Shown in pieces: positions 8,932 through 55,280 of a DNA stretch of 64,000 nt. Numbering within the stretch: the first letter of the stretch is position 1; every line of letters begins with the position of its first letter. Source of the stretch: a virus. Location: positions 1-64,000 of the IMG/VR virus record IMGVR_UViG_3300006104_000014; one strand, given 5' to 3'. The position numbers and the translations under genes were made by a program. The notes beneath the pieces were generated by a model. It saw only the letters and a list, made by a program, of their open reading frames with translations, was not told the DNA's origin and made no database searches.

Positions 8932-9834
8932 CCCCTAATAAGTCTATATCAATTCCATGTTGCTCTAGGGAGTTAGTTGAAATTATTTGTAACTCTTGGG
9001 CTTCTTCTTTGTTGTCTAGACCGTAACCCATCTTCTTAGAGAGTTCAGCAAAGTCCCGGAAGACTTCTTCTGCTTCTTCCATGCTTTCTGGGTTGACCCA
9101 GACAATTTCGTCAACGCTGTAAGAGTTAAGTTCTTCTCTCTTATCCTGATAAGCCTTGTAAAGCTCAGGACGGTGAATTAAGAGATCTTGCTGGAACTTT
9201 TCATCCAGTGACTCAATTTCACGCTTTTGCTCTAAGTGTAAAAATAAGATAAGAAAATTTTGCTGTATTGTATTGAGATTATTATTAGTAAGTACACCCT
9301 TGTTGTAGGCTAACCTAATATGATGGAGGATGTAGGGATCTACTTCCCATCTTTTGGGTTATCGTTTTCACTCTCTACTTCATCTTCGAAAATAGGAGTT
9401 GGGCCAGGTGCTTGGAAGATCCCTAGTTCTTGCAGTACACTTAATACTTGGCCCTCTAATTGGTCAACTTCTACGTAAAGGATATCAATAACGAAATCAT
9501 ACCAACCATTAACTACGTAGTCATACTTTTGTTGGAGTACGTTAGAACCCTTAGAGGCTGGAACTAATCTTCTTCCATCTACGGATTCCAATGCAGCAGC
9601 TACAACAGCAGCTCTATAGGCTCTACCGTATCCAACTGTATCTTCGTATGGTTTAGTTAAAAGGCTAATTTCTAGCTTTTCATTAACAGTAAGTGTTTTG
9701 ATAACAAACTTGTGGAAAGGGATTGAATTAACTTCTTTTTTCAAGTACCCTAGGTATAATAAACCTTCAAACTTATCTTTCCACTCTTCTGGAAAGGTAA
9801 GTAAGTTTTCTTCACTAAGTTGGGTTTCCAACAT
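8915..9834 (-). CDS. Tail assembly chaperone, -1 frameshift fusion
   Basis: After codon 161 (AAA at 9354-9352) a -1 shift gives a 306-residue fusion that ends at TAA 8917-8915. The downstream frame is open for 145 codons (PKRWEVDPYILHHIRLAY... to ...LLGDEDGL), is rich in Glu and Lys with helical character, and lacks an early start codon. This reproduces the lambda G/GT arrangement conserved in long-tailed phages, where the minor fusion product recruits tail tube subunits to the tape measure. The fusion frame overlaps the tape measure start by 17 bases. Without the shift, the 400 bases between the two genes would be unexplained. Confidence 0.85.
9340..9834 (-). CDS. Tail assembly chaperone, short form
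   Basis: The 164-residue protein lies immediately before the tape measure and would bind it during tail assembly, as lambda gpG does. It has no enzymatic motif. Its last codons contain a -1 slippery heptamer, so most ribosomes would end at the TAG at 9340 while a fraction continue in the -1 frame (see the 8915-9834 entry). The start is ATG 9834 with an AAGGAGAT ribosome site close upstream. Identification rests on position and the frameshift arrangement. Confidence 0.8.
   Translation of the reverse strand: MLETQLSEENLLTFPEEWKDKFEGLLYLGYLKKEVNSIPFHKFVIKTLTVNEKLEISLLTKPYEDTVGYGRAYRAAVVAAALESVDGRRLVPASKGSNVLQQKYDYVVNGWYDFVIDILYVEVDQLEGQVLSVLQELGIFQAPGPTPIFEDEVESENDNPKDGK
9352..9358 (-). promoter_or_regulatory. 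-1 ribosomal frameshift site CCCAAAA
   Basis: In the chaperone frame the sequence reads aaC CCA AAA, an exact X XXY YYZ slippery heptamer, four codons before the TAG stop. A -1 slip enters the long open frame that continues to 8915. Confidence 0.8.
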
Positions 9835-29700: not shown

Positions 29701-32037
29701 TTACATGTCCCCAAATTGACTAATATCAGGGCTGTCCATTCCACCATCACCACTATGGTGTGAACCAGCACCCATGGGATCTGTAGCTTCTTCACTTCCA
29801 TGTTGATCTGGTACTACTTGAGCACCAAGATCAGAAGCTAAGTGTTCTCTAAACTCATCTTCATTAAACTTCTCATAACTATCATCTACGATGATCTTCA
29901 TACCAGAAGCAAGCTTCATTCTAACACGCTTCTTTTGCTCAATTGGTACGGCAAACTTCATACGGTTACCATACTCAACTTTACCCTGGAACTCATCATT
30001 GTCATCTTCATCCCAAAGACTGCCATTAACCGAAGAGGTTTTCTTCTTCTTTTTAGGCCCTGTCTTACCCCTAGCTTGATTTTGCTTAGGTTGAGAACCC
30101 TTTTGCTCATCTGATTGCTCTGGTCTTTGTCTTGGGTTTGGTACAGGACCAGAAGGATAAACTTCAGCAGCTCCACTAACATCGGATTGAGCAGCAGGTC
30201 CCGTAAGATTAGGGGCAGCAGGAATAGAGGAAAGGTCGGCCATTGCTTGAGGAGACATTGCAGCACCAATAGATGGGTCCTGAAGCATAGAAACATAAGC
30301 TTCGTATTCCTGTACATACTCTGGGGGAATAGGAAGCTGAAGAATCATTAATCTATCAAAGAGTTCCTTCTTATACTCCTGCTCAGCAACAACTGATTTA
30401 ATCTTCTCATCCTTACGGGCCTTGAGTTCATCATCAAAGTCAATTGGGATATTAATAGCAAGGGTACCAAGGGATACTGGGAATCCACTAGCAGCTAATT
30501 GCTGTAAGAATCCTCTTTCTACCGTTTCATCTCTGAGGTTCATAGACCGGAATCTAACCTCAGGAATAGCTAACTTAGGCCGTTCTTCTACGTATTCTTC
30601 TCCGGTTTCATCATCTACCATGAGAACCGTTTCCATAATAGGAACCATTTGGCCACCTACCTTACGGTACTCAAAGTGACCCTGTCTTTCAGCAACAGGT
30701 TCCATACGTGATCTAATGAATCTATCAATCTTATGCTGGTAGGTACTTAACATCTGGGTAATCAATTCTCTGTTAAGAGCACCAGAAGCATAAGTAGCTG
30801 AACTAGAACCACCCTGGAGTAACTCAGCACCAATACCAAAGACCTGCATAACTTTAGATTCTACACGCATAAAGTCAGCATCTAGTCTTGGCATACTTTC
30901 TCTACCGAAAGCATTCTTAATATCTAATCCATGGTGATAGGTCATTAAACGGAAGTCCGAGTTAATGGCCATACTTAGGTCATCTCTTAGTGACTGAAGT
31001 TCAGTAGCATCCGGAATCCAAGGACCATCTTCGTCAACATTAGGAAGACCAAGAGTAGCAAGGATAAGGGGAGAATACAGGCGGTCAGCAATAGCATCCT
31101 GAGCAGCATTAAGAGATTCTTCCAGCATAAGCATACGAAAAGCACGAAGAAGAATAGGAGTACCATGCTCACTCCAGGGGTTAGTCTTAAACTTTAACTG
31201 CTTCATAATAACATCAGAAACAGGAATTTCTTTATCCTGCTTAGCCCAGGCAACAATATCTGGGTAGAGTTGCATAAGCATTGCATACTCTTGGGCAGGT
31301 TCTCTGGTATCGATGAGTTTCTTAATCTCATCTGGAACTTTAATATGGTACTGGTAGGTTCTAAGAGCTCTATTCTTAGCTACAATAACATCGTTAGGGT
31401 TAATGATTTCATCATCTTCCCAGGCACCAATACCATCATGCCATGACCCCATAGCAAATGCTTCACCAACTGTCCAATGCTCTCTACCAAGGTCAAACAA
31501 AAACTCTTGGTAGTCCAGACCATCAAAGAATAATTCTGTGTAGAATTGTGCAATTCTTTTATCTGGGTGAGCAAACTCAATATCGAGAAGAGGATACCGA
31601 GTATAAATATCGATAAGTGAGGGGACTAAGTAGTGAGTAGTATAAAGAAGACGTGCCCAGTCTCTAATCTTCTTCATTTGCTCATCGGGGTCCTCCATGT
31701 TGAACCACCAGGTTCTCTCCCTCCAATATTCGAAAGGGTCATGAAGTTTTGGCCAGGCCCACTGAGCATCTGAGCCTGTTGCTGCAGCAGTACGACGGTT
31801 TTGAGTATTTGCAACCCCAAAGTCCGGAATACTGCTAAATTTTTCTAACTTTTCTCTACCACGTGATTCTTGCTGCATGGCCATAGGGCCAACATCATTA
31901 AGCATAGATCCTTGTCTTACGTTAGTAAGGATCTCTTTCGTGGCTAATCTACCACGTACAGGGTTACTAGGGAGTGTTAAGCCTTCACGTCTCATTCTCT
32001 GAAACTCGGCTGATGCACTCTTATCTTCTCTAGTCAT
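29701..32037 (-). CDS. Portal protein
   Basis: The 778-residue protein has a portal-like order: an N-terminal arm, a tryptophan-rich clip region (PFEYWRERTWWFNMEDPDEQ, near 105), a helical wing and stem region, and a C-terminal crown. The motif GIGAELLQGGSSSATYASGA near 405 matches the portal segment that contacts DNA. The C-terminal 150 residues are low complexity (PNPRQRPEQSDEQKGSQPKQ). It lies upstream of protease and capsid genes as expected. An intrinsic terminator immediately precedes the gene, so it may have its own promoter. Confidence 0.85.
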   Translation of the reverse strand: MTREDKSASAEFQRMRREGLTLPSNPVRGRLATKEILTNVRQGSMLNDVGPMAMQQESRGREKLEKFSSIPDFGVANTQNRRTAAATGSDAQWAWPKLHDPFEYWRERTWWFNMEDPDEQMKKIRDWARLLYTTHYLVPSLIDIYTRYPLLDIEFAHPDKRIAQFYTELFFDGLDYQEFLFDLGREHWTVGEAFAMGSWHDGIGAWEDDEIINPNDVIVAKNRALRTYQYHIKVPDEIKKLIDTREPAQEYAMLMQLYPDIVAWAKQDKEIPVSDVIMKQLKFKTNPWSEHGTPILLRAFRMLMLEESLNAAQDAIADRLYSPLILATLGLPNVDEDGPWIPDATELQSLRDDLSMAINSDFRLMTYHHGLDIKNAFGRESMPRLDADFMRVESKVMQVFGIGAELLQGGSSSATYASGALNRELITQMLSTYQHKIDRFIRSRMEPVAERQGHFEYRKVGGQMVPIMETVLMVDDETGEEYVEERPKLAIPEVRFRSMNLRDETVERGFLQQLAASGFPVSLGTLAINIPIDFDDELKARKDEKIKSVVAEQEYKKELFDRLMILQLPIPPEYVQEYEAYVSMLQDPSIGAAMSPQAMADLSSIPAAPNLTGPAAQSDVSGAAEVYPSGPVPNPRQRPEQSDEQKGSQPKQNQARGKTGPKKKKKTSSVNGSLWDEDDNDEFQGKVEYGNRMKFAVPIEQKKRVRMKLASGMKIIVDDSYEKFNEDEFREHLASDLGAQVVPDQHGSEEATDPMGAGSHHSGDGGMDSPDISQFGDM

Positions 32038-34151: not shown

Positions 34152-34547
34152 CTATTTCGTTTTGGGCTTCAACGAGGGAAATTCAGAATCAATATTACCT
34201 GGTTCACTTGTACCTTCTACAGTTGCAGATGGAACTCTCGTTCTATTGAATGACCTTGGTAAATTATTGATTTGTTCAGATTGTTGAGCTGGGTCTACGG
34301 GCTCTCCAGGCTTAACGAGATAAGGATTCTTTGTAGTAGCTGTCAATACGTGGCTACGTACAAGTTGCCCACCACATTCACATCTAAAGGAGGAATTACC
34401 AGAATCTTTTGAATCTACGATTAGATCTCCACCCTCAATATCACCTGGGTCTGTTACGTTTCCACAGGAAGTGCAAATGTAATCTGGATAACCTGTAGCA
34501 ACTTTCCAAGATGTAGCTTGGATATATTCCTCTACAGGATTACTCAC
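34152..34547 (-). CDS. Zinc-ribbon protein starting at GTG
   Basis: The frame is open further upstream but there overlaps the preceding gene. GTG 34547 (VSNPVEEYIQATSWK) lies within the preceding gene's stop context (GTGAGTAA) with GAAGAAGAG ahead and gives 131 residues. It contains CTSCGNV near 30 and CECGG near 57, one zinc-ribbon. The C-terminus is Ser- and Pro-rich. Function is not recognised; the start is a best guess. Confidence 0.5.
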   Translation of the reverse strand: MSNPVEEYIQATSWKVATGYPDYICTSCGNVTDPGDIEGGDLIVDSKDSGNSSFRCECGGQLVRSHVLTATTKNPYLVKPGEPVDPAQQSEQINNLPRSFNRTRVPSATVEGTSEPGNIDSEFPSLKPKTK

Positions 34548-36287
34548 TGGGATACTCTTCTTCTTCGTTAAAGATGCTTGGTGGTTGTTCACCAGAAGCT
34601 GGGCTCTCGTCTGGGGTTTTTGCATTACCCTTGGGGATAAGACCTCTACCAAACGATGAAGGTCTACCTCTACCGGTATTTCCACCACTAGAGCCTGGCT
34701 GAGTAAAGTTACGTACACTTGGTTTTCTACTCTTTGGGGGCCCGCCTAAGGTAAACTTATGCTTCTTTTGGACCTGACTGTAATCAATTTGGTCCAAAAC
34801 AACATTAGTCCAACCCTCTTCCGACTTAGGAAGTGGCTCAATATTCTTGTATGGGTCCCAACGACCCTCAAAACTACTTAGGTCTTCTTCTGGGTGCTCT
34901 GAGTTATACTTTTCAACTTTTGACTGCTCTTCATTATATGGACCCCAGTCAAAAGCCTCAAGCTTATAGGCTTTTTCGCCAGGCTTGGTCCCCTTAAGAC
35001 GTACAACGGTATGTGGCTTATCAGAGAGAGGAGCAAACTTCTCTTTCCTACCGGTCATCCAGTTGAAAGCACGCCAATTAGATGGTCTTTTACCTTTAGC
35101 CTGCAATCTATCTGTAGCTAGCTGAGCATCAAGGTCAGGCCATTCTTCGACCGTCTTTTGTCTTGGCATTCCTCTTTCATTTCTAATGATTCTGCCCTTT
35201 TGATCTCTTTCAAAGACGTTACGCTTACTGGGTCTAGTAGCACCCTTAGCACTTTCCCAGTTCCAGAACATTTGACTTGGGTCAGGAAGTTCTTTGTAGC
35301 CATCTAAGCAAGGTTGACATTCTAACCCAAATTTACCATCAATCTTTGCAGCTGGTCTTGGGCAAGCACCTGATCTTGGGTGTACACTTGTACAACGTGG
35401 AGCAAATTCTCCAATATCACTAAGAGCAATTTTATGGTGCTCTGGAAGCTCATCTTCATCAACTTTATAGAAGTTAGGACGTGTTGGATCAGCAAAGTGG
35501 AACTGAGTCATAGAAGCTGACTTGGATAAGATACCCTTATTGGGTCCAAGGTCTCTATTACTTTCTCTAGTATCTGAAGGGTGTCCAGACACCCAGTTAA
35601 TAAGGAACTGGTTAAACTCTGGGTTCTTAGCTGCTACTCTACCGTGGGTAATATAGTGCCCACCTTCGGTTCCAGCTAAACGTACATAGTCTCCAACGTT
35701 AATTTCTTCTCTTCCGGGGACATCATAGGAAGATGCTGGAAATTGGCCTGAGTTAAACTCACGTACATCTGTACTGATTCTATAGTTTCTATTTCTACGT
35801 CGAGCTGGTTCAGCTGATCTTTGTCCAGTTTCAGCTTCTGTTTCGTAGTTAGAACCACCCTCTTCGGGTCCGTCTGGATCACTTTCGCCTTTGCCCTGCC
35901 CAAATTGCCAATTAACTGCAAGCTTTAGGGAGGGCTCTAGACTAAAAAATAGTCACTCAACTTTGGAGCAGAAGTTACTCTATCTGTACTAGTTGCTGGT
36001 TTGCAAATTTGGCAAGAAGCATGACGTAACTGCCATTCATCATAAATAGCTCTAACTAACTTACCCTTATTGTCGGATACGGAAGCTAACTTCCTACGGG
36101 CAGCACTATTGATGGTGTCATCAACCATCTGGCAACGGAGAGCAAACTCTTTATCCGTGTGAGCAAGGAAAATGAAGTCTCCTGCTTTAGAAAGTACTTC
36201 ATGTTTGGCTGAAATTACAGCTTTACCGGCCGTCTTAGCATTAAAGACAAGGTCCTGGGTTGAGTCAAAATCAAATAACGATGACAT
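34540..36287 (-). CDS. -1 frameshift fusion protein (582 residues)
   Basis: The -1 frame is open from a TGA at 35955-35953 to TAA 34542-34540 and continues the 0-frame protein after Leu115. Its first 117 codons hold no ATG, GTG or TTG, yet encode coherent, charged protein (GDYVRLAGTEGGHYITHGRV, then AAKNPEFNQFLINWVSG), so the part before GTG 35592 has no other way to be translated. The middle has CTSVHPRSGACPRP and CQPCLDG Cys pairs (putative zinc site). The C-terminus is basic and Gly/Ser-rich (SSGGNTGRGRPSSFGRG). It precedes the portal operon. Function unknown. A virion or packaging protein is likely by position. Confidence 0.65.
35937..36287 (-). CDS. Short 0-frame product of a frameshift gene
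   Basis: ATG 36287 (MSSLFDFDSTQDLVFNAKTA) follows GGAG at seven bases and gives 116 residues. An earlier start at 36401 would run through tRNA sequence and is rejected. The protein is helical with a CQICK pair near its end and stops at TAG 35939-35937, two codons after a T TTT TTA heptamer. If most ribosomes stop here, this is the major product of a two-product gene. Family not recognised. Confidence 0.7.
   Translation of the reverse strand: MSSLFDFDSTQDLVFNAKTAGKAVISAKHEVLSKAGDFIFLAHTDKEFALRCQMVDDTINSAARRKLASVSDNKGKLVRAIYDEWQLRHASCQICKPATSTDRVTSAPKLSDYFLV
35943..35949 (-). promoter_or_regulatory. -1 ribosomal frameshift site TTTTTTA
   Basis: In the upstream frame the bases read taT TTT TTA, the same X XXY YYZ heptamer used by HIV-1 gag-pol, followed by GTC and TAG. 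Six bases further a GCCCT (35935-35931)/AGGGC (35897-35893) stem can form around an inner TTGC/GCAA hairpin, a plausible stimulator. The -1 frame then stays open for 467 codons. Confidence 0.7.
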
Positions 36288-36399: not shown

Positions 36400-36408
36400 A
36401 TGGAAATG

Positions 36409-36479
36409 TCCGGGTGGTAGGGGTCGAACCTACGGGGCCAGAGATATAAGCTCTAGTTGGATAACCGATCCACACCCGG
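36409..36479 (-). tRNA. tRNA-Ile (anticodon UAU)
   Basis: Acceptor CCGGGTG/CACCCGG pairs perfectly, and the T arm is GTAGG-TTCGACC-CCTAC. The anticodon stem TAGAG/CTCTG closes loop CTTATAT with anticodon TAT, which reads AUA. The D arm is short (GGAT-CGGTT-ATCC). No CCA is encoded at the end. Confidence 0.75.
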
Positions 36480-36489
36480 TAAGCTGAGC

Positions 36490-36560
36490 TGAGGGGGAAG
36501 GATTCGAACCCTCGACATTCGGGACCAAAACCCGACGTTCTACCACTGAACTACCCCTCA
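36490..36560 (-). tRNA. tRNA-Gln (anticodon UUG)
   Basis: Acceptor TGAGGGG/CCCCTCA is perfect, the anticodon stem TCGGG/CCCGA holds loop TTTTGGT with anticodon TTG, and the T arm is GAGGG-TTCGAAT-CCTTC. It reads CAA. Confidence 0.88.
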
Positions 36561-36564
36561 AGGT

Positions 36565-36651
36565 GAGAAGGAGTCAGCACCCTGTTTGTAGAGGTCTCCT
36601 GCGCATTAATCAAACAGACTCCCTATCCTTACGGTATAGGGCATCCTTCTC
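36565..36651 (-). ncRNA. Structured RNA in the tRNA cluster, not a tRNA
   Basis: An 87-base segment is closed by GAGAAGG (36651-36645) and CCTTCTC (36571-36565). Inside are a CCCTAT/ATAGGG hairpin and a long stem GAGTC..TGTTTG / CAAACA..GACTC. The outer size resembles a tRNA, but there is no GTTC T arm and no normal anticodon arm. The perfect stems suggest a selected RNA rather than spacer. The strand is assumed from the neighbouring tRNAs. Confidence 0.5.
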
Positions 36652-36686
36652 AACTCCTAGACTGAGCTAGGAAACTTATTACTTAG

Positions 36687-36926
36687 TTACTTAGTTACTG
36701 GTGGTGTTGTAGCTGGAACTGGAAGTGCACCAAGTAACCAGGAAAGCTTTGGATACTTCTCTTCAAGCTTACGGATAGCAGCGTAGTAACCAGTTGAGAG
36801 TACAGGAGCTAAAACAGCAAACTGTCCACTCTTAAGATTAAAACCTTTACTGGCTAACCAAGCAACTACGGTACCAACAACGACCGGAACACCGGTTCTA
36901 ACGACATTACGCAAGTAGTTTTGCAT
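36687..36926 (-). CDS. Holin-like small membrane protein
   Basis: The 79-residue protein has a first membrane helix (GVPVVVGTVVAWLASKG, about 12-28), a second hydrophobic helix (QFAVLAPVLSTGYYAAI), then LEEKYPKLSWLLGALPVP and a Pro/Thr tail. Size, two helices and the cluster of charged residues between them fit phage holins, which would release the wall peptidase. It sits alone among tRNA genes, away from any lysin. The holin role is an inference from topology. Confidence 0.6.
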   Translation of the reverse strand: MQNYLRNVVRTGVPVVVGTVVAWLASKGFNLKSGQFAVLAPVLSTGYYAAIRKLEEKYPKLSWLLGALPVPATTPPVTK

Positions 36927-36948
36927 AACTTTTCCTTTCTTTTAGGAG

Positions 36949-37020
36949 AGCCCCCGACAGGAATTGAACCTGTATCCGCTGATTACAAAACAGCCGTAAT
37001 ATCCATTATACTACAGAGGC
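36949..37020 (-). tRNA. tRNA-Thr (anticodon UGU)
   Basis: Acceptor GCCTCTG/CGGGGGC pairs with three G-U pairs, and the T arm is ACAGG-TTCAATT-CCTGT. Loop TTTGTAA carries anticodon TGT, which reads ACA. The anticodon stem has a U-U mismatch at the loop end. Confidence 0.78.
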
Positions 37021-37227: not shown

Positions 37228-37734
37228 TTAGTAACTTGTTTGCATAAAGTCATCTGCATTGGTTCTATCAGCATACGGTTGTCGATGATGTATCATTACT
37301 GGGATGGGGGTATCAGGAGCTAAATGGTATAAGCTTATAAGTCTATGATGACCTTCAAAAATTTCTCTATTGCTGCTTTTTTGGTGATATGGACTGAGTG
37401 ACTTATAATCATCTTTTAGGTGCAGTAAGGAAACAGGTTCTTTTAGCCCATTCTTTTTAAGATCATCGTATAACCCAGACTCTTTGGCTTTTTGTAATTT
37501 ATCGTTCCAAAAAAGTTTTTGATTATTGGGGCTACGGTAATCAGTATCCTCTGATGCATTCCACTCTTCTGGATCAACTTTTGAAGGTGTACCTGGACCA
37601 TTACCAAATAATGAGTCATGGAATTCTCCTTCATTAACTGCATAATTGGATATTATGTCACGGGGAGTTTTATACTCTATGTGATGGTAAGCAGAACGAG
37701 GTGCTATAGCGTATCTTTATTTCCAATTAATCAT
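37228..37734 (-). pseudogene. ParB-like tagged paralogue with a stop inside its tag
   Basis: Translation from ATG 37734 gives MINWK-stop-RYAIAPR: codon 6 is TAA where the neighbouring paralogue at 38136-38534 has CAA (Gln). The other 162 codons are open and clearly related (IEYKTPRDIISNY, DLKKNGLKEPV, REIFEGHHRLISL), ending at TAA 37230-37228. No usable start follows the stop early in the frame. It is a recent nonsense mutation, a readthrough gene or a sequencing error. The EGHHRL motif of ParB/sulfiredoxin-like domains is kept, so decay is recent. Confidence 0.75.
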
Positions 37735-37740
37735 TTTGGA

Positions 37741-38136
37741 TTATCTATCTAAAAAGGGTCCATGGGGGATACCAGGGCTTGCAGCGGTGGGGTCGTAAGC
37801 AATGTATTTAACTGTCAATTCTTCGTCTTTTCCAACTGGTTTAATTGCACGTAAACTACTAAACATATCATTTTCACCATGTCTATAAAACTCACAATTA
37901 GGAGTTTCGGCGTTATGATTGATATAGGCGCCAGTAGGTGTACGAATAACTCCTTCAGCAAATCTCCCATCACCTCTAATATGGGTAACACCAAAATCTC
38001 TACCAGCTGGAATGTCTTCTTTTGCAAAAAGACCGTTTCCGTGAATAGAAGAAGGTCTTACATCTAATTCGTTGGGTAAGGGTTTCCAAAAACCTTGCTC
38101 ACTCCAACCGGCGTATCTTTGTTTCCAATTAATCAT
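37741..38136 (-). CDS. Tagged SET-domain protein
   Basis: The 131-residue product starts MINWKQRYAGWSEQ, the shared tag. From about 25 it is a compact SET domain: SSIHGNGLFAKEDIPAG (start of domain), AYINHNAETPNCEF (matching the NHxxxPNC core that binds S-adenosylmethionine and substrate), and KDEELTVKY (matching GEELxxxY). SET proteins usually methylate lysines. A phage version might modify host or virion proteins. It is in a chain of tagged genes with TAATG overlaps. Domain assignment is strong; activity and target are unknown. Confidence 0.8.
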   Translation of the reverse strand: MINWKQRYAGWSEQGFWKPLPNELDVRPSSIHGNGLFAKEDIPAGRDFGVTHIRGDGRFAEGVIRTPTGAYINHNAETPNCEFYRHGENDMFSSLRAIKPVGKDEELTVKYIAYDPTAASPGIPHGPFLDR

Positions 38137-38534
38137 TAGAGGTCTCCGTTATTATAAGTAGAACGTGGATAGAAATATGGATTATCTGTTAAGATCTTTA
38201 CTGGGATCGGCTTATCTGAAGCTATTTCCAATGAACTAATAAGTCTGTGGTGTCCTTCAAAAATTTCTTTATCAGCAACATTTCCATCTCCGCCACCCTT
38301 ATATTCGATGACGGCAATAGGTTTACTTAGACCATTCTTTTTAATGTCATCATGTAATCCAGACTCTTTAGATTCTTTTAGCTTTTGTTGCCAAAAATTC
38401 TCTGGGTCAGGAGAGTCAGATAGTTCACCCATATTAACTTCATAGTTAGATATTATTTCTCTAGGAGTTTTATACTCCATACGATCATAGTCAGCATGTG
38501 GTGCTATAGCGTATCTTTGTTTCCAATTAATCAT
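38136..38534 (-). CDS. Tagged ParB/sulfiredoxin-like protein
   Basis: The start is ATG 38534 (MINWKQRYAIAPHADY); a longer frame begins five codons earlier without need. The 132-residue protein has NGLSKPIAVIEYKG, then EIFEGHHRLISSLEIA and KPIPVKIL, the ParB N-terminal (nuclease-like) signature. Such domains bind or cut nucleic acid or nucleotides. Two copies lie in tandem, the other with a broken tag (37228-37734). The ATP or CTP binding ability cannot be judged here. Confidence 0.7.
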   Translation of the reverse strand: MINWKQRYAIAPHADYDRMEYKTPREIISNYEVNMGELSDSPDPENFWQQKLKESKESGLHDDIKKNGLSKPIAVIEYKGGGDGNVADKEIFEGHHRLISSLEIASDKPIPVKILTDNPYFYPRSTYNNGDL

Positions 38535-39078
38535 TTGGAATCTCCACATTGAAAGCTGAAGCTAAGTCAGCAGGCATCATTTCATTAGGGTCTCTGTCAA
38601 AGATGACACCACCAGCCCATAGGGCCATAGCTGCAGCAGTTGAACAAACCTTGGAATTACTAGAAGAGAATTGAATCTTAATACCTGTAAGGAGCTGTAA
38701 AGTAATAGAGGTAATAGTTAACCAACCGTACTTATCCTTAAGGAAAGAGGTCATAGCAGCTACAGATTGCTCTCTGCTTTGCTTGTTGAGCTTAGTACTT
38801 ACAATTACATACTCAACATCTTTATAGTCATCAATATGTCCATAAGAAACACCACGTCCTACGGCTTCAATAATAGTACCGGTATTATCTACTACCATAG
38901 CAACATGGTTCCAATGAGCAAATTTTTTCATTTCCCCATGATATCTGATGAATTGGCCAACTCTAATCAGCTCAGCAGGAATACCAGTTTGGTGAGTAAA
39001 AATTATATCCCCAGGTTGGAATCTAGTAGGGGCTTGTCCTACTCCATAGTAGGTAAACTTAGTAGTCGTCAAAATCAT
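38527..39078 (-). CDS. Permuted NlpC/P60 (YiiX-like) protein
   Basis: The protein has RFQPGDIIFTHQTG (start of domain), FAHWNHVAMVVDN with the catalytic-type His (about 65), and SKVCSTAAAMALW with the Cys (about 148). His before Cys is the circularly permuted NlpC/P60 order of YiiX and related proteins, which act on amide or ester bonds in walls or lipids. ATG 39078 gives 183 residues; GTG 39090 and TTG 39072 are alternatives, and all overlap the previous gene. No tag. Role in lysis or membrane work is possible. Confidence 0.65.
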   Translation of the reverse strand: MILTTTKFTYYGVGQAPTRFQPGDIIFTHQTGIPAELIRVGQFIRYHGEMKKFAHWNHVAMVVDNTGTIIEAVGRGVSYGHIDDYKDVEYVIVSTKLNKQSREQSVAAMTSFLKDKYGWLTITSITLQLLTGIKIQFSSSNSKVCSTAAAMALWAGGVIFDRDPNEMMPADLASAFNVEIPND

Positions 39079-41750: not shown

Positions 41751-44666
41751 TTATTTTGGTTTTCTTCTGCGGATCTTAACTAATCCAGCAAGGTAATGCT
41801 CTCTGTGGTCATCATAATCTCCTTGGCAACCACACTCACAATCGGAGAAGTTTTCCTTCCACCACCAATCCGTAAAATTACGTAAGTGAGTTTTTTGATC
41901 GCCACCACAACCACAACCACAATTTTCACGGTTACGTTGTCTTAGGAAAGAACGGTTTTCAGCATTCTTATCATTAGTATAGTCAACATATCCAGGAACT
42001 TTTTCTCTGTTAATACTTTGCTGGTAAGCTTGGTCCCTTGGAATATCCTCTTGGATATCAAATTCTTCAGGAGCTAATCTTTGCTGATTAATTCTGTGTC
42101 GGAAACTTTCAACAGGGTCAAAGCCTTCTCCAAACTTAGACTTAACACTCTTGTATTCCAGATTTAATCTGTTGAAAATACCACGGTAGTTATCATCTAT
42201 CTTAAGTTGCTTTTCGTGGTTTTCGTTATTTGGAACTATACCATGACTTGAGAGATAGTCTCTACTTCTTTGAACATAAACTTTCTTATACTCAGCATCA
42301 TAATCTATAGCTGGAGTAATCTTTAATTGTTCAATCCTACTTTTAATTGGGCAATCATCTACACAATTATCGCCAGAATTATCTGCACAATTGCTGATGT
42401 GATAATTAACATCTCTGTTTTCTTGTCTTTCCATCGACTTAAGTTCTTGTGGAGAAGACTGCTCAGGTTGTACACGATCACCTGGAAAAACGATTCTTCT
42501 TCTGTTAAAATTTACTTTTAGACGTTCTTGCTCTCTACGTCTACGCTCTTGGTATTCTCCAGCAGCTGAATAAACTCTAAAGCCTTCTAAATGGGTCTTA
42601 ACTACCTTAAAGTCCTCCAAAGGAGACCTAGCTACTTTGAAGTCTCCTAAAGTCTTCTTATTTTTATTAAATAATTTACCCCAGATATTAGATATTTTGT
42701 ACACTCTAAATGACACTATTCTTCTCCCACCTGGGTTGGGCTTAAAACGGTTTCCACCGCCTGTCCCAAAAGTAAAGTCACTAGCTTCTATATCAGCTCT
42801 TGTCTCTCCTGGTCGAGGTTGAGCAGCTGGACAAAAAGACATATGGTTATTGTGACAACCCATACACATTGCATCAGATAGAAAACTTTCTGTAAAAGGT
42901 CTTTCGTTTCCAAGTGGATGCCTTACTTCTGGGTATTCTCCCTCGGGTGCTTTTCGATTAGACTGTGAACCCCAACCACTAAAGGGATTTCTATTGTTGA
43001 AGAGTTCTTTTACTCTATCTTGGTAACGATTATATCGTTCTTGGAATTTACCCTCATCTTTAAATCTATAGGAAGGGTGTATGCCCAATACTGGCTGATT
43101 AAATTTATTACGTTTAACATCGTCGCCTCTTAAATCGTATGACTCACTTGTCAACATATAAAAGGGTCTATATCCATTTTTACCAATTACTGGTACATTT
43201 GCTTGTCTTGGCCTAGAAAATCTTACAGAGGGTTCATCATCAGCAATTATATGTGGGCAAGTAAGACATTTACCGAACTCTAACTCTTCATCGCTGGGTC
43301 TATTAAAAGTCACCGGATTACTTGGAGAAAGTGTAGGCAAATCTGGGTGATAAGAGATATCATGATGTAAAGAGTAAAGTAATCTATCTTTACTAAGATC
43401 TTTGGCTACAGGGCCTAGCTCACCAAAATCTCCCTCATTAAATTCATATGTTAAAAGGGCAGAATGTTCAGGTTCTTCAGTAGATTTTGTATTAATTACT
43501 TTTTTTATTTGCTCTGGGCTGTACTTGCTAATATTATTTTCAGCAAGAGTAAACATTTTATCTATTGGGCAATCTTTATGACATGAACTACCACAGTGCT
43601 CGTTGTGGAAATTAATATCTTCTTTCGTAAGATCATCAGCGAATGGCTTAAAGTCTAAACCACCTCGCTCTGGTATTCTAACATCGTCTTTGGGACCCCA
43701 GTCTACTCTGGCAGCTACTCTACCTGTTCTTGGCCCCTTGCCACAAATAGAACATTTAACTTTTGACATTTTATAGGATTTTGATGACACTATTCTTCTC
43801 CCACCTGGATTGGGTTTAAAATGCCCATGCCCACCAGTTCCAAATTCAAAGTCTGACTCAGGTCTATGTATGGCTGCTGGGCATTGACTAGTCAATACTG
43901 TATAGCAACCTGAGTGAAATGGTTCTAAAGATATTTCACGTCCTGTTATTGGACTTTTAATTCCATTTACACCTGCCCCAGGACGTGTAAATCTTCCTCT
44001 ATTCTGTACAGCATCCCAATCATCTGATTGCATCGATTCTTGGCTGGGTGGGCTTTTCCATACTTCCTGGGCTTTATCTTGATAATTTTTATAACGTGCA
44101 TTCCACTCATCGTAGTCTTTGAGCTTACTTAGGGGACCAGGCACAAAACCCCCATCTAGTTGTCTATACTTTGGTCTTCTTACATCTATGATGGGCTGTC
44201 CACTTTTTCTTTGGGTCTTCCAACGTACACTGGGTTCATCATCAGCTATTGGATGTTTGCAAATTATGCATTGTCTTTCACCAATATCAGTGTTTGCCAT
44301 AGCTGGAGCTACTACTTGCTGATGCAAAGAAGGATGTGTTAATTCACCTGGTTCCCAGCCTAATGAAAACTCTAAGGGGTCATCATCTATTTTTCTTTGG
44401 AATTCTTTTCTTGAAAGATTTAAATTAGACTCTGAAGTAGTAAAGATCTTATTGAGCTCACAATTTGGGTGACATAAATTACCACAATGCTTATTGTGAA
44501 AACTTACTAACTCTTCAGCATTTTTAAAATCTGGACTCGACATTCCAGATTCAAGTTTTTGCAAACCTGTTTGTGTTTCTGGGTTATACTTTAAACTTGG
44601 TCTATTTGAGGCAGTTTTGTCTTTTATGTGGGATTTTCCACCACATAAAAGACAATACTTAATCAT
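41751..44666 (-). CDS. Giant repeated Cys-rich (zinc-binding) protein
   Basis: The 971-residue protein begins MIKYCLLCGGKSHIKDKT. It is built from at least three related blocks. The first two each have an HNKHCGNLCHPNC-type cluster (near 57 and 355, with a degenerate third near 760), a CIICKHPIADDEPSVRW-type knuckle (near 130 and 480), and FKPNPGGRRIVS near 290 and 640. The end has CGCGCGGDQKTHLRNFTDWW and CECGCQGDYDDHREHYLAGL. Treble-clef-like zinc sites are likely. The CxxC...ADDEPSVR motif is also seen in tagged proteins at 49.6-50.2 and 53.7-55.0 kb. No known function. Confidence 0.7.
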   Translation of the reverse strand: MIKYCLLCGGKSHIKDKTASNRPSLKYNPETQTGLQKLESGMSSPDFKNAEELVSFHNKHCGNLCHPNCELNKIFTTSESNLNLSRKEFQRKIDDDPLEFSLGWEPGELTHPSLHQQVVAPAMANTDIGERQCIICKHPIADDEPSVRWKTQRKSGQPIIDVRRPKYRQLDGGFVPGPLSKLKDYDEWNARYKNYQDKAQEVWKSPPSQESMQSDDWDAVQNRGRFTRPGAGVNGIKSPITGREISLEPFHSGCYTVLTSQCPAAIHRPESDFEFGTGGHGHFKPNPGGRRIVSSKSYKMSKVKCSICGKGPRTGRVAARVDWGPKDDVRIPERGGLDFKPFADDLTKEDINFHNEHCGSSCHKDCPIDKMFTLAENNISKYSPEQIKKVINTKSTEEPEHSALLTYEFNEGDFGELGPVAKDLSKDRLLYSLHHDISYHPDLPTLSPSNPVTFNRPSDEELEFGKCLTCPHIIADDEPSVRFSRPRQANVPVIGKNGYRPFYMLTSESYDLRGDDVKRNKFNQPVLGIHPSYRFKDEGKFQERYNRYQDRVKELFNNRNPFSGWGSQSNRKAPEGEYPEVRHPLGNERPFTESFLSDAMCMGCHNNHMSFCPAAQPRPGETRADIEASDFTFGTGGGNRFKPNPGGRRIVSFRVYKISNIWGKLFNKNKKTLGDFKVARSPLEDFKVVKTHLEGFRVYSAAGEYQERRRREQERLKVNFNRRRIVFPGDRVQPEQSSPQELKSMERQENRDVNYHISNCADNSGDNCVDDCPIKSRIEQLKITPAIDYDAEYKKVYVQRSRDYLSSHGIVPNNENHEKQLKIDDNYRGIFNRLNLEYKSVKSKFGEGFDPVESFRHRINQQRLAPEEFDIQEDIPRDQAYQQSINREKVPGYVDYTNDKNAENRSFLRQRNRENCGCGCGGDQKTHLRNFTDWWWKENFSDCECGCQGDYDDHREHYLAGLVKIRRRKPK

Positions 44667-45225: not shown

Positions 45226-46323
45226 TTAGAACCAGTTGGCGTCGGTACCAAGGATGTCATCTACACTTGCTACTTTTGCAGAAGCTGTCTTGGGAGTATA
45301 GTACTCTCTGCTAGCAACTTTGTCTCTTCTAACAATTTCAACATTCTCAATAAAATTGTCGATAACAGCAGCTCTCTTAGTAACATCGAGGATAGGAAGT
45401 GTCTTTTGCTCAATGTAGTAAGAAGCAGCTTCTCTAGTTGAACTCTGACTATTAAGAAGTGAGTTGTTTTGGTCCTCTACCCATACTTCAGCACCTGCTG
45501 TAACTAGATTGACCCAGTCAGCACTAGCAAACTCATCTTCAATAGTCTTTGCTGTACGGTAAAGAAGTGAACCATCATCCTCACCAAGGTCCATAGTACC
45601 AAAGTTAGTTGGTCTATAAGTACTGGCAACAGTTCCACCTGGAAGACTGTTTAAGTACTCTTCGGTGTCAAAATCAATATATTCCGAAGCAACTCTTTGC
45701 AAAGATTCCTTTTCGGTATCTAGCTCTGTAACAATGCTAGAAATCTTTGAAAGGCTATTGTGGTCTAAATTGGGGTCAGACGAAGCTGTTCTAAGCTCAT
45801 CAATAACCGACTGTAGTTGCTCTAAGCGGTTATAGATACTGTCTGATTTACCATTGAACCAGGAAACGTCAGCTGTTACCTGTCTGGCAAGTCTGACTAA
45901 ATCGTCTGCTTCGTACATGTTTTGCTCCTTGTGAGAAATTTTACTTGCTGCAGCCGATAGGCCACTTTGGTAATCTGTAAAAGTTGGTCCATCTGATGTT
46001 GTAGCTGCATCATCTGCTGCAGTTTGTGGTACTTCTGTATTTTCATCAACTGGGCTATTTGTAGGACTAAAGAATGGAACTGAAGTCTTTACGGCACCTA
46101 GTCTTTTAGCTCTTTGTTTATGGTAATCCTGCATATACGCTTTTCTATGGGCTTCCTTAATAGAAGATTCATCCCCAGGAGTATACGTATAGCACTTACA
46201 ATCTGCATAAGAAGCTTTCTTACCTGGTTCCCCATTTGGTCCCTTACAGTCAACAAGGGGACCAGGCGTATAGTCAAAAGCTATTTTAATAAACTCTTTC
46301 CTACTTACATCTTCAAGCTTCAT
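45226..46323 (-). CDS. Helical protein with Cys-rich N-terminus
   Basis: The 365-residue protein begins MKLEDVSRKEFIKIAFDYTP, then CKGPNGEPGKKASYADCKCY (three Cys). Residues 120-250 are helical (LVRLARQVTADVSWFNGKSD; EKESLQRVASEYIDFDTEEY). A C-terminal region repeats A-x-K-V-A-S type residues. It overlaps the preceding gene (ATGA) and sits just before Dps. Scaffold-like or internal head role is possible; no family recognised. Confidence 0.55.
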   Translation of the reverse strand: MKLEDVSRKEFIKIAFDYTPGPLVDCKGPNGEPGKKASYADCKCYTYTPGDESSIKEAHRKAYMQDYHKQRAKRLGAVKTSVPFFSPTNSPVDENTEVPQTAADDAATTSDGPTFTDYQSGLSAAASKISHKEQNMYEADDLVRLARQVTADVSWFNGKSDSIYNRLEQLQSVIDELRTASSDPNLDHNSLSKISSIVTELDTEKESLQRVASEYIDFDTEEYLNSLPGGTVASTYRPTNFGTMDLGEDDGSLLYRTAKTIEDEFASADWVNLVTAGAEVWVEDQNNSLLNSQSSTREAASYYIEQKTLPILDVTKRAAVIDNFIENVEIVRRDKVASREYYTPKTASAKVASVDDILGTDANWF

Positions 46324-48386
46324 GACTTACCTCTGTTAAACTTAATTCTAGAAGTCCCACGACCAAAACTAAAACTATCTACACCTCTTAATATAGGAGT
46401 TGTATCGTCCTCTACAGCCTTATGCTCTACACCTGGACGGGTTTGTAGTTTCTTTGAGCAACCATTTGCACAAACACCCTGGGTACCTTCTTCACCACAA
46501 CTTGCACAACCTTGAATTGGGTCGAACTCTTTTGAGTCACAATTACCACACTTTAATGGTTGGTCAGCTGCACCACAAGCTAAACATCCAATATCACTTG
46601 GAGTAGACTTTCCATGTACACAATTTGGGTCTCCACATGCACAAACGTCTAAGCTTAATGGATCAAACATTTCATCAGCACCCCTGACCTCTGGGGTGTC
46701 TAAATTAAAATTTACTATCGATGTCCTATCGGCTGGGTCATCGTTTGGGTCAGCATCATATTCATCACCAATACGTGCAGCGGTAAAACGGATCTCTCCA
46801 CCACAATCGTAGCAAACATTTCCTGAGCCATTGCAGTTTAAGCAACGGGATCCAATCTTGGTATTACCCTCGTCGTCAATGCAACTTTCCTGTGCACAAG
46901 CAGCTACTTTAATTCCATTACACTCAACACAGCTAGCCATTTTGATTGGAACATGAACATGAGTTCTGTTGGGAGGAGCTGATTGGGTTGGGGTCATACG
47001 ATAGATCTTACCGTCATTGTATCCGTGGATATAGTCATCGGAGACAGCTGCAATTACTTCATCCAGCTTTTTGTTTTCTCTGGCATCCCAGTACCCTTGG
47101 AAGTACAAATCAGAGTCTGTAGCCTTCTTTGTTAGACTCTCATTATAACCTACAGAACCCCACCTCATAACGTCACCATCTCCTACACTTGCTGGATCAG
47201 CTCCGTCTGATGCTCCACCATTACCCATACCAACTAGAGCTATTCTATCTGAACCTTCTCCACCAAGCCAATGCCCGTCTTGCATAGCTGGTAATGAATC
47301 AGCATCAGCAAATCTATGGAAAGACAACATTTGTTGCTTTTGATTTGTTACACTTGCTGGTTCAGTCTCTGTAGATGGATCAACTGGATTAGCAGCCGGA
47401 TTAACCTGACCCATAGGAGCAGTTGGGGTTACGGGTGCTGTTGGGTTCAACCCTGAGTTAGTCATCATTCCACTTGCAGCAACTACTTTGAAGTATTTTC
47501 CACCAAGGAAAGTAGAACCAGCTGACTCTCCACCAGGAGAACCACTTTCTGCTGTTCCAAATAATGGTCCCTCATACCCTACACCAGATGGGTCATCTGA
47601 ATGTTCTGCATTAGCAGCACTATCTGCTCTTACAATCCAGGAACTTTGTTTATTGAAAGCTGGACCCCACTTATTTCCATGAGATTCTAAGCTATATTGT
47701 GGGTGTTGTGGAGTTTGTTCTGGCTCTGTATCAAGACCAATTTGTCTAAGCTGGTGTTCAAAATCAAACTCTCCTAAAGCTTTTCGAGTTTCAGCTATTT
47801 GGGGGTCTTCAGCATAAGTTCTGGGAGCTGTTTGTTGTCTATTTCTTACTTTATTGACAACATATGCAGTCCCTGCAGCTAAACCAGTTGCACCAAGCCC
47901 TAAAGCTACTTCTTTAAGAGCATGCCCTCTATTAGCTGCTTGCTGTGCTGGTGTAAGAGCATGCTGAATAGCTTGGGCAGGCCAACCATGACCTGTAGGA
48001 CCATTAGCTTCCTTACCCATACCAGCAGCATCCATAGCATCATACTTAGAACGCTTTTGAGCACAATCTTCCTCGGAAGTACAAGGTTCGTCTCCGTATT
48101 GGGCATGCCAATGGTCATGTCCTTGGTCATGTCGAAGAATGTCCTCTAAGGGTTCACCATCACCAGCAATCATATCGAGCTTTTGATCTACTTCTTCAAG
48201 CTTTTGTAAAATTTGTGGTTCAAGATTTCCTGCAGTTACCCAAGTTGAGGGTCTTACAGAAGCTTGTCGCTCTTTACCAGCACAGGCACTGCAAAGTCCC
48301 TCACTATTTAATGGACCAGGTCCACCACACTCTGAACAGGTCTCTTCTGAATCCTGTACCTCAGAAAATCTTAACGGAAGTGTCAT
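46320..48386 (-). CDS. Multi-zinc-ribbon protein with membrane or linker segment
   Basis: The 688-residue protein carries at least eight CxxC knuckles: CSECGGPGPLNSEGLCSAC near 17, CTSEEDC, CVECNG...CAQESC, CLNCNGSGNVCYDCGG, CACGDPNC, CLACGAADQPLKCGNC, CASCGEEG, and CANGCSK. A hydrophobic stretch (ALKEVALGLGATGLAAGTAY, near 155) might span a membrane. An SSWIVRADS segment near 245 recalls islands in the protein at 39059-40174. Such zinc-ribbon-rich proteins are uncommon in phages. It could bind nucleic acid. Function is not recognised. Confidence 0.6.
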   Translation of the reverse strand: MTLPLRFSEVQDSEETCSECGGPGPLNSEGLCSACAGKERQASVRPSTWVTAGNLEPQILQKLEEVDQKLDMIAGDGEPLEDILRHDQGHDHWHAQYGDEPCTSEEDCAQKRSKYDAMDAAGMGKEANGPTGHGWPAQAIQHALTPAQQAANRGHALKEVALGLGATGLAAGTAYVVNKVRNRQQTAPRTYAEDPQIAETRKALGEFDFEHQLRQIGLDTEPEQTPQHPQYSLESHGNKWGPAFNKQSSWIVRADSAANAEHSDDPSGVGYEGPLFGTAESGSPGGESAGSTFLGGKYFKVVAASGMMTNSGLNPTAPVTPTAPMGQVNPAANPVDPSTETEPASVTNQKQQMLSFHRFADADSLPAMQDGHWLGGEGSDRIALVGMGNGGASDGADPASVGDGDVMRWGSVGYNESLTKKATDSDLYFQGYWDARENKKLDEVIAAVSDDYIHGYNDGKIYRMTPTQSAPPNRTHVHVPIKMASCVECNGIKVAACAQESCIDDEGNTKIGSRCLNCNGSGNVCYDCGGEIRFTAARIGDEYDADPNDDPADRTSIVNFNLDTPEVRGADEMFDPLSLDVCACGDPNCVHGKSTPSDIGCLACGAADQPLKCGNCDSKEFDPIQGCASCGEEGTQGVCANGCSKKLQTRPGVEHKAVEDDTTPILRGVDSFSFGRGTSRIKFNRGKS

Positions 48387-52316: not shown

Positions 52317-53734
52317 AGTATATCTTCAAACCCTTCATAGCCAGGAGCAAGCTGTCGCCATGGGTAAGCCCGTTGAAACTTGTTAGCTATATTAATCAGC
52401 CTATTGTCCTGATAGTGCAGCGCTGTTACCTGCAAACCGAACGGCAATCCATTAGAACACGCACCGAACGGTATGGATATTGCAGGCACACCTGTGACAT
52501 TTTGCATTGACTCGTTATAGTCTTTTGCTGGTGGATTATAGCTACCATCAGCAGCGAAGCCAGGGTTTGGATTGGTTGGCGTGAGAAGCAGTCCATCGCT
52601 GCCAAGGAGATCATCAAGATTTTTAATATACATAAACCTCTTGCGTCGAAGATCCATGTATTCTTGTAGGTCTACACCCTTACCTATAGTTAAAAAGTCT
52701 TTACCAGATTTAGTTAGTTTGTCCCAGTGCTTGTCTACCCACTGCTTGCCAAATTTAGTATACTGATCTGCTGACACAGCATTGTACCACTCAAGATCCG
52801 GATTGCCCTCTGGGAAAACATCCCGTGGCTCTATCCATATCACTTCGCGCTTCATTAGCTTACCAAATGCTTCTGCTGCCTCTTTAAACTTTTCAGCAGT
52901 CTCTGCTGGCAGCTTTCCAAATGGTGACGTTCTTTCAGCTGCGTATATCTTACCGACACCATATTCTTTATTGTCCAGGAAGTTAACAGCGTCCAGTGGC
53001 AAGCTTGCTGGGTCGCCAGGAGTAGGTGTTTTAAGGATATTATACATTAGTTGTAAATCGTCAGCAGAGTTAGCTAGAATACCATCAGTGGAGTAATCTA
53101 TCCAATCTTGTGCAGGCCACCGGCCTATCATGCCATTGGTTGGCTTCAGCCCAAGCAGCCCACAGTAACCTGCTGGTGTGCGAATAGATCCGCCACCGTC
53201 TGTACCTGTAGCTGCAAAGACCAGGCCAGCAGATAGTGCAGCAGCACTACCACCACTACTACCACCAGGAGCTAGCTTAATATTCCAGGGGTTAGTTGTT
53301 ACTCCTGTTAGATCATTGGCTGTGTAGCCATTGCAACCAAACTCGGGTAGTGTGCTTTTGCCAACAAAAATAAACCCACTAGCTCTCATCTTTGCTGGAG
53401 TAGCATCGTCTTGCTCCTCTGGCTTTGCATTCTTAAATGCAACGCTGCCCTTTTTAGTTGGCATGCCTTTAACATTCTGCAGATCTTTTATCAGTGCTGG
53501 TACACCATGGATTGCTCTAGTAGCTTGACCACTATCAAACATTTTAGCTTGTTGGAGCGCGTCATCATATGCTTCGTGTGCAATGACATTAAGATCTTTG
53601 TTATACTTTTCTATATTACTTATACTTTTTTCTACCAGCTGGGTAGATGTGACTTTGCCAGACTGTAGAGCAGCAACAGCGCGTGTCAATGGACCAGAAT
53701 TTTTACTAGATGAATAGCGTTGTGACCAGTTCAT
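52313..53734 (-). CDS. Tagged amidase-signature enzyme
   Basis: The 473-residue protein begins MNWSQRYSSSKNSGPL and is then a full amidase-signature fold: Lys83 in VPALIKDLQN, cis-Ser in LAPGGSSGGSAAALSAG (near 160), nucleophilic Ser in GTDGGGSIRTPAGYCG (183). The Ser-Ser-Lys triad is complete. Relatives hydrolyse amides or act in Glu-tRNA(Gln) amidation. Codon use is more mixed than the neighbours. A phage amidase with a virus-specific tag suggests a cellular enzyme recruited with an added leader. Substrate unknown. Confidence 0.85.
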   Translation of the reverse strand: MNWSQRYSSSKNSGPLTRAVAALQSGKVTSTQLVEKSISNIEKYNKDLNVIAHEAYDDALQQAKMFDSGQATRAIHGVPALIKDLQNVKGMPTKKGSVAFKNAKPEEQDDATPAKMRASGFIFVGKSTLPEFGCNGYTANDLTGVTTNPWNIKLAPGGSSGGSAAALSAGLVFAATGTDGGGSIRTPAGYCGLLGLKPTNGMIGRWPAQDWIDYSTDGILANSADDLQLMYNILKTPTPGDPASLPLDAVNFLDNKEYGVGKIYAAERTSPFGKLPAETAEKFKEAAEAFGKLMKREVIWIEPRDVFPEGNPDLEWYNAVSADQYTKFGKQWVDKHWDKLTKSGKDFLTIGKGVDLQEYMDLRRKRFMYIKNLDDLLGSDGLLLTPTNPNPGFAADGSYNPPAKDYNESMQNVTGVPAISIPFGACSNGLPFGLQVTALHYQDNRLINIANKFQRAYPWRQLAPGYEGFEDIL

Positions 53735-55023
53735 TGGTATTGCTCTTGTCTTTGTTCAACATTTTTACGACGTTCTTCTGCCCTACAGTCAAGGCAAGGT
53801 TGTCTAGACATATTGGGTTGTAACAACTGGCCTAATGGAACTGTATTATAGCAACTTAAGCAAGTACCAACAGATTGTGGTTTTTCAGAAGCAGCTGGTG
53901 TTGCAGCTTGTTCTGTTTGCTGTGTTTGGTTTCTTTTACGGTACTGTCTTCTTGGAGTCTTAGGGGCAGCTTTACTATCACGGTCTTCTGTTTCGTTAGC
54001 TGAATACTCTTTGGGTGAATAGTTTTTTACAAACTCACTGTAGTCATCAGAGCCTTTTGATAATCCAGCATTTACAGCAGCTTGGTGAGCAGCAGCATAA
54101 GTTCTACAACCCTCACAGGGCTTTTCTTTTAAGTTGTAGTGTTTTGATAAGTTAGAGTGGCTAGGTTGACCTTTTGGGTCTTCAGAATCCCAATCATGTT
54201 CTACACTTGCTTCTGGCCTATTAAGGTAGGCCATTCCACTATGTACACTACCATGCTTGTTAGACATCATAGCTCTAAAGGCAGCTTCTGCTTTTGCCTT
54301 TGAAGTGTGGTGAGATAAGATCTTACCTGTACCCTTTTGCCAAATTACCCAGCTTTTAGACTTCTTATCGTAACGTACATAATGGTATCCATTTTCAGAT
54401 GCATACCTTTCATTCCAATTAGCACTACCCATATGCCCTTCCATAAAAGGCTTCATCGATTCTTGTAGGTACTCATCATGGAAGGAATGTGCATTCATCT
54501 TAGAGTAATTTTCTCTAAGTTGTTCAATTGGGCCTTCTTCAATATTTGTACCCGACGACCTAGGAAATAATTCAGAATGGGGCTGTGTCTCTTGTTCAGA
54601 TCTACTTGGAAGTCCATGACAAAATACCATCAAATCTGATAAGCAATTTGAGTGTGCAGGTCCAGCAAAATGTGCACCAAAATCTGATGGAAGTATTTCT
54701 CCATCTTCACTAGGACCTGGGACTAAACGTTTTGCCATTTCTCCAGGTTTAAACTTATCCCCACACCAAATACAACGGTTTTCTCTGATGCACTTTTCAT
54801 GCATCATTGGGTTGATGCCACCGTCTGGATGCATAGTATAACCTACAGCATGTGGCTCGTCACTAAAGGAGCCTCCACCAGTAGGTCCATAGAATTTTCT
54901 AGTTGGAACGTAGTGTGGTCTTGACCTTCCAATAGGTGGATCCCATATCATACTTCTGTTCCAAAGTTTCTTTGGCTTAGCGTATCTCTTGTCCCAAGCT
55001 AAGGAACCTAAATAGTTAGTCAT
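53731..55023 (-). CDS. Tandem-tagged zinc-finger protein
   Basis: The chosen start ATG 55023 (MTNYLGSLAWDKRYAKPKKL) has AGGTGA eight bases ahead; GTG 55035 with a GTGA overlap is an alternative. Tag-like motifs occur twice: LAWDKRYAKP at the start and SANWNERYASENGYHY near residue 207, suggesting fusion of two tagged proteins. The first half has CIRENRCIWCGDKFKPGEMA and NIEEGPIEQLRENYSK; the second ends with CLSCYNTVPLG...CLDCRAEE. The 430-residue product has no recognised function. Confidence 0.65.
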   Translation of the reverse strand: MTNYLGSLAWDKRYAKPKKLWNRSMIWDPPIGRSRPHYVPTRKFYGPTGGGSFSDEPHAVGYTMHPDGGINPMMHEKCIRENRCIWCGDKFKPGEMAKRLVPGPSEDGEILPSDFGAHFAGPAHSNCLSDLMVFCHGLPSRSEQETQPHSELFPRSSGTNIEEGPIEQLRENYSKMNAHSFHDEYLQESMKPFMEGHMGSANWNERYASENGYHYVRYDKKSKSWVIWQKGTGKILSHHTSKAKAEAAFRAMMSNKHGSVHSGMAYLNRPEASVEHDWDSEDPKGQPSHSNLSKHYNLKEKPCEGCRTYAAAHQAAVNAGLSKGSDDYSEFVKNYSPKEYSANETEDRDSKAAPKTPRRQYRKRNQTQQTEQAATPAASEKPQSVGTCLSCYNTVPLGQLLQPNMSRQPCLDCRAEERRKNVEQRQEQYQ

Positions 55024-55031
55024 ACTTTTAC

Positions 55032-55280
55032 TCACCTATACTTTTCCAATACGTCTAAGGCATCGCTTATACCAGCAGCTCTATCTGGGCTATAAATACC
55101 ATTACCAGCTGCAAGGTGGGCATTAGCAGCTACAAGGTGGGCCCTTGATAAAGGTCCCTCTGTATTTTTTGACCGGTCTAAATGGTATAAGTGTCTAGTA
55201 CCATGGTCGTAGGGATCTAATTCAGTCTGAATAAAAGGCCCAAGTGATACTTTCTTAAAACGCTCATTCCAACTATACAT
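55032..55280 (-). CDS. First gene of the tagged operon
   Basis: The start ATG 55280 (MYSWNERFKKVSLGPFIQTE) lies five bases after GGGAG; GTG 55292 is longer without benefit. The motif SWNERF is a variant of the tag. The 82-residue protein is His- and Ala-rich (LSRAHLVAANAHLAAGNGIY). It is the first gene after the TTGACA promoter at 55.4 kb. Confidence 0.6.
   Translation of the reverse strand: MYSWNERFKKVSLGPFIQTELDPYDHGTRHLYHLDRSKNTEGPLSRAHLVAANAHLAAGNGIYSPDRAAGISDALDVLEKYR

Follow-up and report, generated by a model that had tools for sequence, protein, structure and literature searches.

A probable programmed −1 frameshift in a portal-adjacent gene of a contractile-tailed phage

The locus and its two reading frames

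The window analyzed here, a stretch of 64,000 nucleotides, comes from a 77,359-base IMG/VR virus record (IMGVR_UViG_3300006104_000014). We found genes for a tail sheath, tape measure, portal and major head protein, as expected of a contractile-tailed phage. Among isolates, actinobacterial myoviruses of the Bxz1 group have the most similar portal and head protease, with 34–39% identity for the portal. The gene of interest lies on the minus strand between tRNA-Ile, tRNA-Gln and tRNA-Thr genes upstream (36408..37020, minus strand) and the portal gene downstream (29701..32037, minus strand; PHROG 2833, E = 1.6e-166, with synteny in relatives), from which its long frame is separated by three conserved genes (34090–32326). 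Beyond the tRNA genes, positions 37292–38536 contain direct repeats of 79–104 bases that are ~75–83% alike, and an exact 27-base repeat opens two neighboring ORFs with the shared leader MINWKQRYA (at 38136 and near 38536). These repeats look like duplicated gene starts.

The zero-frame gene (36287..35937, minus strand) has 116 codons. It begins with the ATG at 36287, which is preceded by a GGAG ribosome-binding site and is consistent with the starts in relatives, and it ends GAC TAT TTT TTA GTC TAG, the TAG being at 35939–35937. The product consists of a conserved domain of ~96 residues (hereafter the N-domain), closed by a CxxC motif, and a short tail. Structure prediction gave an all-helical N-domain model with a pLDDT of 80, for which comparison with PDB returned no meaningful match.

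The −1 frame is closed upstream by a TGA (of GAGTGACTATTTTTTAG) immediately 5′ of the overlap. Since both frames are open only over CTATTTTTTAGTCTAG, a shift must fall at the in-phase heptamer T_TTT_TTA (35943..35949, minus strand). Once past it, the −1 frame stays open for 467 codons, from AGT to a stop at 34540 (34540..35943, minus strand), corresponding to fusion residues 116–582. The predicted fusion is thus 115 + 467 = 582 residues long, with the junction ...SDYFL-SLEPSLK.... The first-pass annotation, made from the sequence without database searches, had described these frames, the stop context and the 467-codon extension, and both coordinates and sequence proved correct. Its count of 117 codons free of ATG, GTG and TTG at the start of the long frame is also right, the earliest candidate being a GTG at 35590..35592 (minus strand). 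As a lone argument, however, this is weak, because start-free runs are common in this genome: 987 of 8052 comparable 117-codon windows in other genes (12%) lack starts as well.

Searches of Pfam and PHROG with the 467-residue part returned no match and no Ig-like C-terminal domain, and Pfam detected no MuF or toxin domain in either this part or the short product. Homologue searches retrieved only one near-identical contig; no divergent homologue was found in IMG/VR, in phage isolates, in the relatives' loci (by local profile search) or in 28 whole contigs of relatives. Modeled without an alignment, the 467-residue part reached a pLDDT of 34.9.

Slippery site, predicted hairpin and coding signal

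In-phase heptamers of the X_XXY_YYZ type occur at 0.36% per codon in the other genes of the phage, and T_TTT_TTA in phase is absent from all 10,140 of their codons. The chance of encountering an in-phase heptamer across the 4–5 possible positions is ~1.5%. In E. coli, 61 of 64 X_XXZ_ZZN heptamers are shift-prone given a strong stimulator (PMC4066793). The three that do not shift are not among the heptamers found here, and T_TTT_TTA is absent from the strongest bacterial heptamers named in that study.

The GCCCT/AGGGC stem noticed in the first-pass annotation is real and forms the base of a larger predicted hairpin that begins 7 nt past the heptamer (35894..35935, minus strand; GCCCU.CCCUAA..UUGC...GCAAUUUGGG.AGGGC). 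The stem and its spacer fit the rule for stimulators, namely a structure ~4–10 nt downstream that opens with a G-C pair followed by at least three more pairs (PMC4066793). Its folding energy is −18.4 kcal/mol, equaled in only 0.44% of 459 genic windows, although compared with dinucleotide-shuffled versions of itself the hairpin is not exceptional (z = −0.7). No strong Shine-Dalgarno-like stimulator is present upstream of the heptamer, and an Rfam search identified tRNAs only.

We then considered whether the long frame is a gene in its own right, translated from an internal start, either the GTG at 35592 or a non-standard codon. Starting at the GTG would leave 350 codons, and in several relatives a distinct gene downstream does begin at an ATG of its own. 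Yet the 117 codons before this GTG score +0.584 bits per codon, compared with an in-frame mean of 0.633 and an off-frame 99th percentile of 0.06, and codon usage is coding-like throughout the frame; initiation at the GTG leaves this coding signal unexplained. Moreover, the GTG lacks a Shine-Dalgarno-like sequence, and the other −1 junctions of the relatives have their first start no more than 120 nt from the stop, as against ~350 nt here. We therefore regard a separate gene as improbable.

The other minus-strand junctions of the window were surveyed in the same manner, considering those with a −1 frame running for at least 80 codons. At two junctions only is the first start more than 120 nt downstream, namely in the gene described here and, at 9342, in the tail-chaperone pair; the overlap of the frames contains an in-phase heptamer in each case. 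In the latter it is C_CCA_AAA (9352..9358, minus strand), at the end of a 164-aa gene (9834–9340) upstream of the tape measure. The proposal that the new site stands beside a classic tail-chaperone shift as a second recoded gene is thus borne out as far as the chaperone shift is concerned. The chaperone −1 frame is open for 141 codons past the stop, and the tape measure occupies 6139–8931.

Relatives of the N-domain

Searches of IMG/VR yielded 51 and then about 57 N-domain loci, representing about 25 distinct versions; a match from a GTDB scan (L121) was rejected as spurious and short. The gene order is conserved: a metallophosphoesterase, two or three small genes, the tRNA region, the N-domain gene and variable genes, followed, wherever the fetched stretch extends far enough, by the three conserved genes and the portal. 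What follows the N-domain is highly variable, and may be a long in-frame protein, a short protein or a start-less −1 frame. Most relatives are of the in-frame or split kind. The long in-frame proteins include L008 (704 aa), L009 (808), L014 (667), L018 (580), L019 (601), L020 (568), L049 (684), L114 (593) and L115 (648). The short ones have 100–280 residues, several with a separate ATG-started gene immediately after.

A start-less −1 frame follows the N-domain gene in the phage described here and in two other lineages. In L026/L027, 103 residues are followed by 734 codons in the −1 frame, with the first start at 359 nt; in L036/L037/L039/L041, 402–425 residues are followed by up to 407 such codons, with the first start ~500 nt on. 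Both lineages carry ACAAATTTTACCGTATAG, the canonical A_AAT_TTT, a few codons upstream of the stop. Predicted hairpins accompany AAATTTT in L026/L027 and L036/L037/L041 and begin ~3–8 nt downstream of the heptamer, with energies of −19.9 kcal/mol in L037 (z = −4.0) and −15.3 kcal/mol in L026. The −1 parts of both lineages are coding-like before the first start. Substitution counts among L036–L041 could not serve as a test of selection because their −1 part is made of Pro/Ala-rich repeats.

A survey of 104 −1 junctions from 32 of the relatives' loci showed how distinctive this design is. Only four junctions have no start within 120 nt, and all four are at the end of an N-domain gene. An in-phase heptamer is present in 4/4 of these late-start junctions versus 2/100 of the others, the four records representing two lineages. 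The three frameshift lineages are separated from one another in the N-domain tree, so that at least three changes of frameshift label are forced, and each has a neighbor without a shift: L008 (in frame) for the TTTTTTA phage, L022 for L026 and L018 for L037. A single ORF of L022 carries both the N-domain and a Zn-ribbon region with homology to the −1 product of L026 (E = 2e-5). The C-terminal ends of the L018 protein and the L037 −1 frame are alike by eye (RVSSKIDSIRDYLRNN versus RVSSRIAQLQNILNK). In-frame sister versions of this kind are the pattern predicted by a fusion protein.

The genes of L026 and L037, otherwise different, share 21 identical nucleotides spanning heptamer and stop, which suggests that the shift site itself has been exchanged. 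In IMG/VR the AAATTTT cassette is confined to six contigs, all among the known relatives, and it is absent from the window. The SxDTNF motif that carries AAATTTT also recurs inside the −1 product (LKRSNDTNFIKDG; L037:7194-8399, L036:7246-7276), with no stop after it.

These comparisons also bear on whether a lost T (T7 to T6), through an assembly error or a recent mutation, has simply broken an ordinary in-frame gene that needs no recoding. A single added T would join the frames, and sister lineages do have in-frame versions. The only close relative of the exact gene is a second IMG/VR contig, 99.991% identical over 43.9 kb (2 mismatches and 2 gaps); it keeps the heptamer with the same six T, though it may represent the same population. 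Beyond this, the hairpin and its spacing would have to be a coincidence, and the two other lineages display the same design with a heptamer that is not a homopolymer, in one of them retained across strains that differ by in-frame indels. A broken gene is accordingly hard to credit. RNA polymerase slippage giving a share of transcripts an extra U is least plausible of all: the heptamer does contain six consecutive T, but slippage in bacteria usually requires longer runs, the AAATTTT sites are not homopolymers, and a hairpin at ribosomal spacing suits ribosomes.

The N-domain also has remote homologues in isolated phages. When the N-domain profile was run against all plus-strand ORFs near the portal genes in Mycobacterium phages Bigswole and Phrappuccino, it picked, with weak scores, the N-terminus of a large gene two places before the portal. 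Aligned by hhalign with a profile of ten such proteins, it gave 94.6% probability and E = 6.8e-8 over 80 columns. These homologues, which include Bigswole KHO58_gp237, Myrna gp87, Rhodococcus E3 gp68, Finch gp12 and Stormageddon gp8, share with our gene the N-terminal position of the domain. Judged by these profiles, the N-domain is a remote homologue of the start of the portal-adjacent large protein, the homology being detected for this domain. The setting is alike too, with tRNAs or small genes upstream and the portal downstream. In the Bxz1 and Myrna groups the gene lies directly 3′ of a tRNA cluster, matching the tRNA position in the window, and is followed by a gene for ~120 residues and the portal. 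In contrast to the gene described here, it is uninterrupted, a single ORF of 525–1296 aa in the ten actinobacterial myovirus isolates, and its C-terminal parts have no detectable relation to the 467-residue part. A single ORF in the isolates implies that joining is the norm, and frameshifting would restore the joined form for a share of the product. On virion proteomics of Myrna, PMC7150772 contains no mention of gp87. The protein family, left unplaced by the first-pass annotation, is thus partly placed through the N-domain.

Probable frameshift extension and possibly exchangeable C-terminal parts

The in-phase heptamer, the hairpin spacing, the coding signal before the first start and the arrangements in relatives together lead us to conclude that the gene is very probably read by programmed −1 ribosomal frameshifting, yielding a 116-residue form and a 582-residue fusion. 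The fusion by design proposed at first sight is strengthened by the two further start-less lineages with heptamer and hairpin and by their in-frame sisters. According to this model, most ribosomes would terminate at the TAG and release the 116-residue N-domain protein. A fraction would pause at the hairpin with tRNA-Phe and tRNA-Leu on TTT TTA, slip one base back onto TTT TTT and read 467 further codons, producing a 582-residue protein with the same N-domain. The N-domain may anchor the protein in head or portal assembly, in which case the shift frequency would set the number of copies that carry the extension. From gene order, the long part is most likely an extension borne by the smaller share of the copies of a protein associated with the head or portal. 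As a likely origin, C-terminal parts may have been shuffled behind a fixed N-domain, some in frame, while those landing out of frame would have been retained through frameshifting.

Extensions of this type are familiar from gene 10A/10B of phages T7 and T3 and from the head protein of Lactobacillus phage A2, in which a −1 frameshift yields a minor, C-terminally extended form (PMC5009743). In related phages such extensions are expressed in frame or through a −1 or +1 shift, a pattern explained by recombination that moves Ig-like domains and sets them down in frame or out of it (PMC5009743). The present gene resembles these systems in ending at a −1 site and in existing as in-frame, shifted and split versions of a modular gene. 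It differs in that the extended protein is not a major capsid or tail protein, being a candidate virion component through its synteny with the portal, and in that the extension, four times the size of the base protein, lacks a detectable Ig-like domain. It also resembles the tail-chaperone G/GT shift, in which ribosomes slip by −1 at a heptamer close upstream of the stop of the short product; unlike G/GT, it lies beside the portal and tRNAs rather than before the tape measure, and its extension has 467 residues. In polymorphic phage proteins of the MuF type, the head-associated N-domain is constant and the C-terminal parts vary greatly (PMC5576092); the likeness is one of layout only. A more speculative and rather unlikely extension of the model is that a constant portal-associated N-domain carries exchangeable, very different C-terminal payloads across the whole family, that frameshifting at various heptamers sets the payload-bearing fraction per particle, and that the frameshift signals evolved repeatedly or travelled as a short cassette.

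The data support well the view that this is a new gene family with a known kind of phage gene expression, frameshift-extended in the manner of T7 10A/10B. It adds a portal-adjacent family to the few phage genes other than tail chaperones with credible −1 frameshifting, and provides a natural comparison of one domain alone, as an in-frame fusion, or frameshifted at two kinds of heptamer. Frameshift rescue of shuffled phage domains thereby becomes a testable idea. In practical terms, annotation pipelines would otherwise leave out 117 residues at the start of the long part.

Several other genes in the window recall the relatives' loci. The region 41751–44666 encodes a Cys-rich protein of 971 residues with repeated CxxC motifs and no match in Pfam or PHROG; similar Cys-rich proteins are abundant beside the N-domain gene in relatives. 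Short stretches of the products of 46320–48386 and 53731–55035 match L008, in the C-terminal part of its N-domain fusion, which is encoded in frame. The matched region (L008 5175–5576) has a weak Pfam hit to DUF2188 and is a domain common to several genes.
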